Positions 32,378 through 39,551 of a stretch of DNA of 64,000 bases are shown here, in pieces (within the stretch, counting starts at the first letter, position 1; each line of letters opens with the position of its first letter). This DNA comes from Methanomicrobia archaeon DTU008 (lineage in GTDB: Archaea; Thermoplasmatota; Thermoplasmata; Methanomassiliicoccales; Methanomassiliicoccaceae), in NCBI GenBank assembly GCA_001512965.1, contig LFRW01000042.1, forward strand, positions 6,185-70,184, given 5' to 3'. The notes under the pieces were generated by a model that saw only the letters and a list, made by a program, of their open reading frames with translations, did not search any database and was not told the DNA's origin. The translations under genes were made by a program, and so were the position numbers.

Positions 32378-33453
32378 GGACGACGGAGTAGATAGTCCAG
32401 ACTAACCCCTTTGCTAACAATCGTCCACACTGTTGGTTCAAGAAGTGGTCCAATCTACGCACTCATCGCAAGGCAAGCCGGGGTTGGAAAGATTACATCA
32501 CTCGCGCTGAGACAGTGTTGCCAGCGAAGGTTAAGCCGGAGCAGGCGGCGGCGTGGTGGATCGATCCAGGCTCATGCGACATCGAGGACATCGACGTTCC
32601 CGGCAAGCCGAAACGAAACACCAACGGCCTCGGGACAAATGCCCAGCGCGCAGCGCTGGCCAAGATCCCCGTTACAGCCACTGTGGGCGAGGAAGCGAAG
32701 GTACGACGGAACCTCATAAAGGCGTTCACGAACGAGGAGCTCATCACGCTAGGGCGGGCCGGGACCAAGATACATGTTTACCCACGAACGCACAAGGCGG
32801 CTGGGACATATGAAGCCGCACAGAACCGGATCGCCGTCGATCACGATAACGCGTTCGCACAGACGACGGTCACACATGAGGTCGTGCACGCGTTGAGAGA
32901 TAAGGACATGTCCCGCCGGGGGATCCTCGCGAAGTCCAACATCCCAGGGATCGAGGAATCCCTCACCGTCGCAGAACAGCAAGCCCGGACGGACACGCCT
33001 GGACTGTCGGGATGTTACTGGAACTGCCTGGTGTTCGACCAAAAGAGCAAACGATGGAGGAGGCCTACCGACAGAGAGGCCATGAAGATGGCTGAAGAGG
33101 ATCACAAGCTCTTCACCGGCGGCAAGGGGAAGGGACTGACCGGGGAAGCGGCGCTGCGCTCGGTCGAGCGCAACTGGTCGAAGTCGCACATCGCCCGGCT
33201 GTCGTACAAGTCCAATGGCAAGATGGCCATCAACCAGGCGTCGGAGGTCTACATGGGCATCGAGCCGTTGAGCAAGGCGCAGCCTCGGACATCCAGGAAG
33301 AAGGCCGCAGGGGCCGCTTCCGTGCCCGTTAGCAGGCCGACGGCGGTGGCGGCAGAGAAGAGGACTCCTAGACGTGCTAAAGGCCGCGGAATGCCGTCCA
33401 AACCAGCTAGAGGTGGTAAGAAGGAGTGGTCGATACGGCAGCGGAAGCGATGA
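32368..33453 (+). CDS. Putative zincin-like (HEVVH) protein with basic C-terminal tail; in-frame TAG at 32389-32391
   Basis: VTHEVVHALRDKD...EESLTVAEQQAR; the ORF track starts at GTG 32515, but the frame is open upstream to a TAG, and an ATG lies 7 codons before the TAG. Confidence 0.5.
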
Positions 33454-33470
33454 GGACTATGTGATCGATT

Positions 33471-33752
33471 TCAGATGTCAAACCATCCGAAGTCATTGCA
33501 GATGATATACTCGTAACGTTCTATGTGGTGGGTCCCGGACATTCTTATCCGTCGATACTCTAGACCATATATATCGCAGAACTGGGCGATCTCCTCTGAC
33601 CTATCATAGGTCACCATGAACGGGCCCTTGATGCGGCTCACCGGCTCGAACAGGCGCTCATGGTCCACCACGTTGTTAGTGTAAAGCCGTCTGCCAGCCG
33701 ACTTCTTCGATGTCTTGTTGAGAATACCGCGATGATGGTGGTGTTGGTCATT
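33471..33752 (-). pseudogene. Remnant of D12-class DNA adenine methyltransferase (C-terminal fragment)
   Basis: RGILNKTSKKSAGRRLYTNNVVDHERLFEPVSRIKGPFMVTYDRSEEIAQFCDIYGLEYRRIRMSGTHHIERYEYIICND resembles the C-terminal third of Dam-like enzymes; N-terminal FxGxG and DPPY region absent. Confidence 0.55.
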
Positions 33753-34075: not shown

Positions 34076-35290
34076 ATGATTAGCAGGACTTCAACAATTG
34101 CCAGATTCACCGACTCACCATAGCTCTACCTCTTCAACCGCTCGAACGAGGCTGTCAGAAGGGTAAAAACAGCGTGCGGCTGGAGAGAGGACGCCATCGC
34201 AGTCTCCGATGCCAGCAAAATCCTGGACGCCCAATCTGCGTTCGAATACGAGTACCTCCGGCTGAGAACGAGGCCGGAGCTGGACGGCGCCCAGGGGGCC
34301 GTCAGGATCGCCGATCTCTTTTGTGGATGCGGCGGCCTGGCCCTGGGATTCGAGCAGGCCGGTTTTAGGTCCGTCTATGCGGCCGACCTCAACAAAACGG
34401 CCTGCAAGACCTATGAGACCAACTTCCATCATCCTGTGTTCTGCGGCGACATTGCCGACCTGGAACGGCTGCCAGAAAGACCGGAACTTATCGTGGGAGG
34501 GCCGCCTTGTCAAGGCTTCTCACCGCTGGGTAAGATGTCGGCATCCGAGGTCATGCAGCAGAATCATATCAGCATGAACAAGCTGTGGCAGCATTACTTC
34601 CGACTGGTGGAGGATTCGATGCCCAGAGCGTTCATTGTCGAGAACGTTCCGCAACTCCTTACTTCCAAGGAATATCCTCTCATTGTCAAGAAAGCCGAAG
34701 AACTGGGCTACAATGTAGTGTCGGGCGTCCTTAAGGCGGAAATGTATGGTGTCCCACAGAAGAGGACCAGGGGATTCATAATAGGGGCCCTGGATTTCTA
34801 TCCGGCCTTGCCGGGCCCCACCAAGGAACGAAAGACCGTCAGGGACGCTATTGGCGATCTTCCCCCTAAGCCGACGGGCGAGAACCTGCATATCGGCAGG
34901 AATCCGACCCCCAAATCTCTGGAACGCTACCGTTGCATTCCTCCCGGCGGCAATCGGTTCGATCTGGTCAGGAAACGCCCCGACATATGCCCGGAATGTT
35001 GGCTCAAGAAGAAAACGGGCAGTACGGACGTGTTCGGCCGCATGGAGTGGGATAAACCGTCCCTCACCATTCGAACGGAGTTCTACAAGCCGGAGAAGGG
35101 TTGTTACCTCCACCCAAGCGAGGATTGCCCCATCACCTATAGAGAGGCCGCCCGGCTCCAAACGTTCCCCGATGACTTTGTGTTCGAGGGCAGTAAGATC
35201 GAGATCGCCCGTATGATCGGAAACTCCGTCCCGCCCAAGCTCGCATACCACGTGGCAAAGGCCGTGTTGAAGGGGCTCAGGAGAGATTAA
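34076..35290 (+). CDS. DNA (cytosine-5-)-methyltransferase; in-frame TAG at 34121-34123
   Basis: IADLFCGCGGLALGFEQAGF (motif I), GGPPCQGFSPLG (motif IV), FIVENVPQLL (motif VI), IGNSVPPKLAYHVAKAV (motif X). The only in-frame ATG upstream of motif I is at 34076, with TAG as codon 16. Confidence 0.85.
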
Positions 35291-35967
35291 CGGAACGTCC
35301 ACGAACCTGTTTCCACCTTCACCGGAAGGGTGTGCCTCTTGATGAGCTTGGAAATGACCTCTTGGACCGTGATGCCCTGTTGTGCGGCCTCGCTCTTAGC
35401 TCTCGCCAAAGCATCATCGTCCAGTTCTATCACCACAATATTCGCAGACTTCTCAGGATATGCGAACAGGCAGCCGTCGCATCCCTCCTGAACGCACGTT
35501 CCACAGGCTTGCTTTTTGAGGTTGTTGCAGTTACGGCATAGAAGTTGGCCGTTCGATGCAACGGTATCGCCTAGCTTATCGAACGGGATCCTGTGGTCCC
35601 ACATGAGGGTTTGTTCCACATCCTCCATGCTGCTGCCGTTCGCCCTCAATTTGCATATGGCACATTTGGGACCGCCTCGACGCAGTATCACGCTCTTATC
35701 GGCTTTTGAGAAATACGGCCTTCGCCTGGTGGCGAATAACGGCATGTGGCCGGTGAGCTGATAATAGGTTGTACCCCGGTCAATGAAAACGTTGATAGGG
35801 TAACCGAACTCATTTCTCAGCTCCCTGGTCCGCCGGGCCCATTCGGGTTGGCCGACATGGTCCCTGAGTTCATCTGATGGAACAGGCTCCCCCGACCAGA
35901 GCAGCTTGAGAATCTTAGCGTAAACCCCTCCAACATTGGTAGGATGGTCAGACAGATCGGACGCCAT
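35287..35967 (-). CDS. HNH endonuclease, probable type II restriction enzyme partner of the C5 methyltransferase
   Basis: CAICKLRANGSSMEDVEQTLMWDHRIPFDKLGDTVASNGQLLCRNCNNLKKQACGTC; tail-to-tail with the methyltransferase sharing TTAA. Confidence 0.8.
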   Translation of the reverse strand: MASDLSDHPTNVGGVYAKILKLLWSGEPVPSDELRDHVGQPEWARRTRELRNEFGYPINVFIDRGTTYYQLTGHMPLFATRRRPYFSKADKSVILRRGGPKCAICKLRANGSSMEDVEQTLMWDHRIPFDKLGDTVASNGQLLCRNCNNLKKQACGTCVQEGCDGCLFAYPEKSANIVVIELDDDALARAKSEAAQQGITVQEVISKLIKRHTLPVKVETGSWTFR

Positions 35968-36411: not shown

Positions 36412-37113
36412 TCAGCTCTTGAGGGGACTTCTACCCATACTCACCAATTTGCTATTCATCTCATCGATTGTTTCCCGGCTTTTTTTCGGTAGCACATAGT
36501 AGTAATCAAATAGCTGTTCAAGTACGGTTAATATAAATTCAGCCTCCATAGGTTCAACCTCCACTATGGATCCCGAATTTTCGTCCTTGATCGGATGAGC
36601 GCCAAAATTACCAACCTCCCTTACTGCATCGAGCTGGAGTCGTAAGTCTGATGGAAGTCCCTTTAGGGCTTCTTCGACTTTTCCACTCAATTTAGACTTG
36701 GAATAACCCTTGTCGCTCAACATCCTTTCCAAGCAACGACGCGAAAGTGCGGCGCTAGCATTTTCGCTATATGGAAGCACCATAGCCGATTCGTTGAAAT
36801 CCTTAGCAATATCTTCGGGGACTTCGCAAGGGGCCCGCCTGCTAGATGTGAATGGGAATGCCAGCCTAGTTGTGACTTTGCCATCATCTTCAATGTCTAA
36901 ACTGATGACCGGCCTCTGGCAGCTTGGACATCGGGAAACGTTGATAGTAATATGTTTTCCACTCGTTCCTCCCCAGCCAGTAACCATCATCTTTGTATTG
37001 TATGGACGGAGAAGTTCATCCTCTGGAAAAAGGCAATATCCTTCAGCGTCCTTGAAATGAACGGACTTATTGCAGTGTGGGCAGACCCCATCTGAATCAA
37101 CTATGTAGCTCAT
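36412..37113 (-). CDS. DUF4145-like protein with N-terminal zinc ribbon
   Basis: CPHCNKSVHF...CPSCQRP; C-terminal ASAALSRRCLERMLSDKGYSKSKLSGKVEEALKG...VREVGNFGAHP. Confidence 0.7.
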   Translation of the reverse strand: MSYIVDSDGVCPHCNKSVHFKDAEGYCLFPEDELLRPYNTKMMVTGWGGTSGKHITINVSRCPSCQRPVISLDIEDDGKVTTRLAFPFTSSRRAPCEVPEDIAKDFNESAMVLPYSENASAALSRRCLERMLSDKGYSKSKLSGKVEEALKGLPSDLRLQLDAVREVGNFGAHPIKDENSGSIVEVEPMEAEFILTVLEQLFDYYYVLPKKSRETIDEMNSKLVSMGRSPLKS

Positions 37114-37589: not shown

Positions 37590-37871
37590 TTATTCTCCTC
37601 CTCCATTCAGAATCTCCTCGATCTCCGCCAGCTTCTCCGCGACCGCCCTTCCCTTCGGGGTGAGCTCTAGGAATTTTCGCCTGGGGAACTCAGTCTCCCT
37701 TTCTTCCATGATTAAATCCTCGGCAACCAGAGACCTAACCCGGCTTATCGTGGTGCCCGCTCCCTTTGCAAGCCTGCTTGATAGCTCTGTAGTAAATATT
37801 CGCCCCTCCTTGAGTAGGACAAGCATAATGCCAATCGCTTGTGTATCCTCGAAGAGTTGCGCCCTATACAT
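37590..37871 (-). CDS. Winged-helix/MarR-like transcription regulator
   Basis: LFEDTQAIGIMLVLLKEGRIFTTELSSRLAKGAGTTISRVRSLVAEDLIMEERETEFPRRKFLELTPKGRAVAEKL. Confidence 0.7.
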   Translation of the reverse strand: MYRAQLFEDTQAIGIMLVLLKEGRIFTTELSSRLAKGAGTTISRVRSLVAEDLIMEERETEFPRRKFLELTPKGRAVAEKLAEIEEILNGGGE

Positions 37872-38155: not shown

Positions 38156-38308
38156 ATGAAGATGGAACGGACGCTGAACCACAAGAAGAACGAATCAGCA
38201 ACGGCCATCGACCTCATCGTTCTGACCAATGGCCGGGTGGGGAGTCCATCAGCAATCTTCTCCTCCATACTACGCCCCGCCGGCCTTACACCTCAGGAGG
38301 CGATTTGA
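38156..38308 (+). CDS. Small ORF upstream of integrase
   Basis: MKMERTLNHKKNESATAIDLIVLTNGRVGSPSAIFSSILRPAGLTPQEAI; ends next to the integrase start. Confidence 0.4.
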   Translation: MKMERTLNHKKNESATAIDLIVLTNGRVGSPSAIFSSILRPAGLTPQEAI

Positions 38309-38309
38309 T

Positions 38310-39530
38310 TTGAGCGCCCGCGGATATGGGACCGGAGGTAACCATGCGAAAAAGCGCAAGGCAATCCCGGCCAAGGGGGTGGCGTCACTGAAGCTGGGAC
38401 GCTATCCCTTCGCCGCGGGCATACCATATTTCATGGAACGAAAGAAAGGCGTCTGGCGTGGGAGGACCACGGCCCCGACGAGGAAGAGGACCCTGGACCT
38501 CATGGCCCGGACGTTCGAGGACCTGAAGGCTCGAGGAGATGTCATCACGACCGACCCTCGATACATCGGCGAGTCGGACATCAGAGCGTATGCGGATGAT
38601 ATCAAGCGCCTGGACCCTGAGACCCAGGCGCAAAGGCTTCGGTTGCTTAACGACTTTCTCTGTTCGTTTGGAAACAGGCGAATGGACGATATGATCCGCT
38701 CGGGCGAGTTTCTGATACCGTCGGCTGGTCCCAAACCTGTCAGGACCATGAGCGCCGATGATCTCGCGAAGATATTCGAGGTCGTCGGTCGGATGGAAGG
38801 CTGGACCGGTTCGATGTGCCGTGGCATGTGTGCGATCTACTTCGCCTCTGGTCTGCGGCCCAGCGAGCTGCGTCTCGCCGAGTATAAGGACCTCGACCTC
38901 AAGAAAGAGAGGATCTTTGTCTCCCATCCGAAGGGAGAAGGCAACTGGGCATCTAGGGTCTGGGTCGATTTCATCCGCGCCGACATGATGCCCCTCATCA
39001 GGTCGTACGACAAGGAGAGGGCGGAGTATCTCAGGGAGAACGGCGTAAGCGACGCGAAGTACCTGTTCCCCAACATACACTGGCGCACTGGATACTACTC
39101 AGAGAACCGCTTCCGGCAATTGGCGAGGCTGATCTCCGCGGAGGCTGGTGTGGACTTCTCCCTCAAGATGTTCCGCTCTACCCTATGCAGCCTGACCGTC
39201 AACGGGGACCTGTCGCGATTGCCGGCGATGGGCATGCAATTGCGCCACTCGAGCCCTGAGATCACCAAGAAGTACTATGCGGACATCGAGCGCGGGAACG
39301 TCGGCAAGCAGCTGAGACCCGCGTGGAAGGAGACACCGATCGTGACACCGATGGCGATGTATGCAGGACCGTCGGTCCCGAACACCAACGATTTCCGCAG
39401 AAACCATCTGGACTGTTTTGGCGACGAAACCATCGTTATTGACTTCGATAACGCTTATACTGGCTGGGAAGAGTGGCGGACCCGGGGGGATTCGAACCCC
39501 CGTCATCGGCTCCGAAGGCCGAAAGGATAA
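38310..39530 (+). CDS. Tyrosine recombinase/integrase
   Basis: ASGLRPSELRLAEYKDLDLKKERIFVSHPKG; FRSTLCSLTVNGDLSRLPAMGMQLRHSSPEITKKYYADIE; TTG start preceded by AGGAGG; C-terminus WRTRGDSNPRHRLRRPKG is antisense tRNA. Confidence 0.85.
   Translation: MSARGYGTGGNHAKKRKAIPAKGVASLKLGRYPFAAGIPYFMERKKGVWRGRTTAPTRKRTLDLMARTFEDLKARGDVITTDPRYIGESDIRAYADDIKRLDPETQAQRLRLLNDFLCSFGNRRMDDMIRSGEFLIPSAGPKPVRTMSADDLAKIFEVVGRMEGWTGSMCRGMCAIYFASGLRPSELRLAEYKDLDLKKERIFVSHPKGEGNWASRVWVDFIRADMMPLIRSYDKERAEYLRENGVSDAKYLFPNIHWRTGYYSENRFRQLARLISAEAGVDFSLKMFRSTLCSLTVNGDLSRLPAMGMQLRHSSPEITKKYYADIERGNVGKQLRPAWKETPIVTPMAMYAGPSVPNTNDFRRNHLDCFGDETIVIDFDNAYTGWEEWRTRGDSNPRHRLRRPKG
39430..39472 (-). repeat. Right copy of imperfect terminal inverted repeat
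   Basis: Reverse complement TCTTCCCAGCCAGTATAAGCGTTATCGAAGTCAATAACGATGG; see 32335-32377. Confidence 0.5.
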
Positions 39531-39551
39531 TCCAGGCTACCCCACGAGTCC
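39474..39551 (-). tRNA. tRNA-Arg (anticodon TCG)
   Basis: GGACTCGTGGGGTAGCCTGGATTATCCTTTCGGCCTTCGGAGCCGATGACGGGGGTTCGAATCCCCCCGGGTCCGCCA; loop CTTCGGA; CCA encoded. Confidence 0.95.

Follow-up and report, generated by a model that had tools for sequence, protein, structure and literature searches.

A C5 DNA methyltransferase gene without a canonical start codon downstream of an in-frame TAG in a Methanomassiliicoccales genome

The methyltransferase gene and its neighbourhood

The window (the whole 64,000-nucleotide stretch that we analysed) belongs to the genome of Methanomicrobia archaeon DTU008, a 1.76-Mb assembly that is 99% complete and comprises 59 contigs. A plus-strand frame in the window stays open for 388 codons after a TAG and closes at the TAA at 35288–35290 (Table 1). 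The frame matches Pfam DNA_methylase (PF00145; E 2e-65), as well as NCBIfam dcm (TIGR00675) and PADLOC MTase_II. Motif I (IADLFCGCGGLALGF) begins at the isoleucine codon at 34307, and motifs IV (PCQ), VI (ENV), VIII (QxRxR), IX, and X are also present. The original prediction, made from the sequence alone, had held that the methyltransferase motifs are intact, and both the profile match and motif inspection bear this out: the catalytic motifs are all intact, and the 327-codon catalytic part is undamaged and coding-like in its codon use. Assignment of the catalytic domain is secure from about 34301 onwards, and the enzyme is presumably active.

The predicted structure of the 388-residue frame, for which rows from plasmid records were left out of the alignment, has a pLDDT above 95 from residue 60 and of about 45–56 over residues 1–59. 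No alignment row covers the leader well, so the pLDDT is a weak test of the leader. The model resembles M.HaeIII and M.HhaI (3ubt, E 1.2e-23, TMt 0.72).

The methyltransferase gene is convergent with an intact HNH gene, and the two overlap by 4 bp in a shared TTAA stop. The adjacent endonuclease gene recurs at homolog loci: relatives of the HNH gene are found close to the methyltransferase at 36 of them, and an annotated convergent HNH gene stands beside the homologs on a Sphingomonas plasmid (L028), where the overlap is also 4 bp, and on a Halorussus plasmid (L029). The methyltransferase and the HNH protein thus probably form an ordinary type II restriction–modification pair, as judged from gene content and order. 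The neighbourhood is a small defence island with an integrase and a tRNA-Arg gene. A direct repeat matching the 3' end of tRNA-Arg, sought as the far border of the island, was not found.

On the other side of the methyltransferase gene, between it and the ORF at 32515–33453, a short coding-like frame on the minus strand (33480–33740) has no family match and is possibly a gene remnant. A D12-type methyltransferase remnant, suspected by eye on the minus strand near 33560–33740, had no match among Pfam families or PDB sequences and was discarded.

Table 1 Features of the methyltransferase locus (positions in the window).
Feature	Position	Strand	Basis
15 codons from ATG 34076 to the TAG	34076..34120	+	Codon use non-coding-like
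In-frame TAG, interpreted as a normal stop ahead of the gene	34121..34123	+	Sequence; TAG stop frequency
Open leader without canonical start	34124..34279	+	Moderately coding-like codons; homologs not detected; low-confidence predicted structure
C5 cytosine DNA methyltransferase, most likely extent, with putative near-cognate CTG start	34280..35290	+	Pfam, NCBIfam, PADLOC, homolog L040, model
HNH endonuclease, probable type II restriction partner	35287..35967	-	Pfam HNH 6.7e-7; PADLOC REase_II 1.9e-26
DUF4145 protein, PADLOC PD-T7-4-like, probable second defence gene	36412..37113	-	Pfam, PADLOC
HxlR-like winged-helix regulator	37590..37871	-	Pfam
Tyrosine recombinase (phage integrase family), overlaps the tRNA-Arg gene	38229..39530	+	Pfam
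tRNA-Arg (TCG), probable integration site	39474..39551	-	

Start codons and homologs

The frame, the TAG, the position of motif I, and the ATG upstream at 34076 are all as originally described, and so is the lack of any in-frame ATG, GTG, or TTG between the TAG and motif I. The internal start of the ORF track at 34436, previously called ATG, reads GTG. The chance that 61 unselected codons contain no canonical start is 5–7%, as estimated from base composition; therefore, its lack over such a length is unremarkable in the absence of selection. The near-cognate codons between the TAG and motif I are ATC at 34196, 34220, and 34307, and CTG at 34223, 34262, and 34280.

A canonical start is present upstream of motif I in 129 of 130 distinct homologs and absent in one, so a gene lacking it is unusual in the family. 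The nearest one is at most 20 codons from motif I in 121 of the 130 (median 6), indicating that the homologs do without residues ahead of motif I. The closest homolog (L040, from the Thermoleophilia MAG JAUSDE010000094.1) is 64% identical over the catalytic domain and starts with a TTG one codon off the position equivalent to CTG 34280. This TTG abuts the stop of the upstream gene (TAATTG). The abutting gene encodes an HhH-GPD (endonuclease III-like) glycosylase (L040:3317-3970), and at another locus (L010) a glycosylase-like sequence, recognized by eye, lies in frame ahead of motif I.

We judge it slightly better than an even chance that the gene is an ordinary methyltransferase of a restriction–modification pair, with the TAG a true stop upstream of it and a near-cognate start by motif I. 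Ribosomes would initiate past the TAG, on a near-cognate codon shortly before motif I. CTG 34280 is the favoured candidate, because its position corresponds to that of the TTG of L040, and the product would then begin M-DGAQGAVRIADLFCG; ATC 34196, or GTC and ATC at 34301 and 34307, are less likely starts. Use of a near-cognate codon, a proposal drawn from comparison of sequences, is consistent with the homolog starts near motif I and with a fold predicted confidently only from residue 60 onwards. A start-codon change of this kind occurs elsewhere in the family, since Tychonema sp. (L097, 3992–4010) has ATT at the exact site of its siblings' ATG start. In addition, the HNH partner is intact, and an active pair would therefore need the methyltransferase to be expressed. 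CTG 34280 sits behind a modest GAGG, and Shine–Dalgarno-like pairing scored for the candidate starts singles out none of them. Counting against this codon, coding-like codon use reaches back to about 34175, beyond what such a start needs. CUG accounts for 0.024% of starts in bacteria and yields 0.86% of AUG output in E. coli (PMC11497404). Since CUG initiation is inefficient, expression of the methyltransferase would be weak, or the start may indeed be lost.

Loss of the start is a close rival of near-cognate initiation, and a distinctly possible, if not a probable, account of the locus. A canonical start would have been removed by a point change or an assembly miscall, leaving the gene silent or only seemingly start-less, and the leader would be its former 5' part or plain intergenic DNA. 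In accordance, frame positions 34196, 34280, and 34301 are each one base from a standard start, just one of the 130 relatives lacks a canonical start, and the genome is an assembly of 59 contigs. However, neither the catalytic part, with its coding-like codons, nor the HNH gene is damaged, and a silenced methyltransferase next to a live restriction enzyme would harm the host.

On the Halorussus caseinilyticus plasmid, the annotated methyltransferase (L029:3010) lacks motif I and has an intact convergent HNH gene alongside; the 5' end is truncated, and the frame that follows opens with ATT.

Codon use and homology on the two sides of the TAG

The original prediction had proposed looking for homologs that align across the TAG and the first 15 residues, and none reaches there. 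The 61-residue leader itself was sought among homologs of the methyltransferase and is carried by none. Three candidate matches were rejected. First, seven homologs (mostly from Desulfobacterota-type genomes) have a 40-residue N-terminal extension, which the leader does not resemble beyond shuffles (p 0.29–0.89). Second, the tblastn matches at L149 and L150, which seemingly reach query residue 2–8, cross stops, and the open frames there extend only 12–17 codons upstream. Third, a Rhizobium match of the leader (E = 4) has no methyltransferase beside it.

Codon use differs between the two sides of the TAG. The codon score of 34076–34120 is -0.47 (GC3 0.47), a value that places it in the bottom 2% of true coding windows, as against +0.31 for 34124–34306 and +0.23 for the catalytic part. 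Among open windows, 5–7% of those in shadow frames and 14% of the intergenic ones score as high as the leader, and the coding-like score of the leader is only moderately significant. The signal extends back to about 34175, with a significance of about 5% when judged by shadow frames and of 14% when judged by intergenic windows, and fades upstream. An amber gene would have coding or homologous sequence both before and after its TAG, and this is not found here.

A leader without homolog, together with a codon signal that fades upstream of about 34175, could also mean that a different frame encodes the true N-terminus, with a frameshift or an assembly indel in the leader linking the two. We regard this as highly improbable, as the two other plus-strand frames have no coding score over 34177–34300, and the homologs show no requirement for sequence ahead of motif I.

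Pyrrolysine decoding and the missing pyl cluster

The headline of the original prediction was that the TAG may be decoded. PylS scores above the curated cut-off in five of five same-genus genomes and in 13 of 14 same-family genomes, and the genome under study retains one mtmB with an in-frame TAG (C16:26432-27781). The suspicion of pyrrolysine was therefore reasonable. The pattern of kinship and the content of PylS and MtmB also point to Methanomassiliicoccales. In addition, Pyl proteins beyond the methylamine methyltransferases have been proposed, as predictions, in Methanomassiliicoccales (PMC4153887), and the leader that separates the TAG from motif I has moderately coding-like codon use. 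Nevertheless, decoding of the TAG as pyrrolysine (or its suppression), with a protein that begins at ATG 34076, appears very unlikely. In the genome under study, the best match to PylS scores 34.5 bits (cut-off 178) and that to PylB 33.3 bits (cut-off 348), indicating that both are absent; the tRNA pattern, which would miss an atypical tRNA-Pyl, finds no tRNA with a CTA anticodon; and the remaining cluster is missing at the syntenic place, the pyl locus through which alone pylC and pylD were sought. Thus, the pyl system that the prediction proposed looking for was not found, and the non-coding-like codons before the TAG and a leader that no homolog carries likewise speak against its headline.

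The frequency of TAG as a stop points the same way. TAG closes 9 of 44 ORFs in the window and 30 of 138 long ORFs sampled genome-wide (about 22%). The share is 18–26% of long ORFs in two PylS-bearing relatives (samples G002 and G003). TAG stop usage in three other Methanomassiliicoccales is at most 11% (PMC3941956), a level exceeded in all the sampled genomes of the clade studied here (G000, the source genome, G002, and G003). Most likely, then, TAG 34121 is a genuine stop outside the gene. Of the three options put forward at the outset, a CTG-type start is the best supported, TAG decoding is disfavoured, and a pseudogene that has lost its start keeps the intermediate standing given to start loss above.

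The reference pyl locus is that of a same-genus genome (L236, G003:C11), in which the pyl genes other than pylS were identified by position. In the source genome, the flanks of this locus are directly joined at G000:C16:28391-28399 (L251/L252) with a 9-bp microhomology, GCGCCAGCT. Missing at the junction are 8.8 kb with pylS, the other pyl genes, and a second mtmB. We consider that the loss of the cluster is likely a real deletion, because a 9-bp overlap is short for a collapse by the assembler; a chimeric join or a strain mixture is a less likely alternative. The junction replaces the first residues of an mtmC-like gene, which by eye is apparently still in frame, and truncates a membrane-protein gene.

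It is barely conceivable that members of the species that bear pyl translate the leader through the TAG as pyrrolysine, so that protecting host DNA against the cell's own restriction enzyme would be tied to the methylamine-linked supply of pyrrolysine. If so, strains losing pyl would be left either to live with the restriction–modification pair or to silence it.

Significance and comparison with known systems

The methyltransferase and the pair most likely belong to known kinds, and the locus is a minor peculiarity, not a new type of gene. A rule that accepts canonical starts only misannotates a complete methyltransferase here and removes its SAM-binding motif. Pending evidence at the protein level, the odd start is a curiosity; CTG initiation, if proven in an archaeal restriction–modification gene, would offer a useful example of a start codon that keeps methyltransferase expression weak. 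The loss of pyl with retention of an mtmB that contains a TAG matters more than the start of the methyltransferase. Provided that the deletion is real, it is a natural test of the consequences of losing the 22nd amino acid in a clade that uses pyrrolysine.

The locus resembles the Pyl-decoded mtmB, mtbB, and mttB of Methanomassiliicoccales in its in-frame TAG and in having near relatives with pyl genes. Unlike in those genes, the conserved protein does not include the TAG, the codons preceding the TAG are non-coding-like, and the pyl cluster is absent. Compared with other C5 DNA methyltransferases, of which L040 is the nearest, the protein has all the catalytic motifs, and its N-terminus would fall at the same position if CTG 34280 is the start; in contrast to these relatives, it has no ATG, GTG, or TTG start and follows a 61-codon open leader after the TAG. 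The HNH protein is only about 30–50% identical, over the matched parts, to those of the type II HNH pairs of Sphingomonas and Halorussus, but the pair resembles them in its convergent genes, its overlapping ends, and its matches to PADLOC MTase_II and REase_II.
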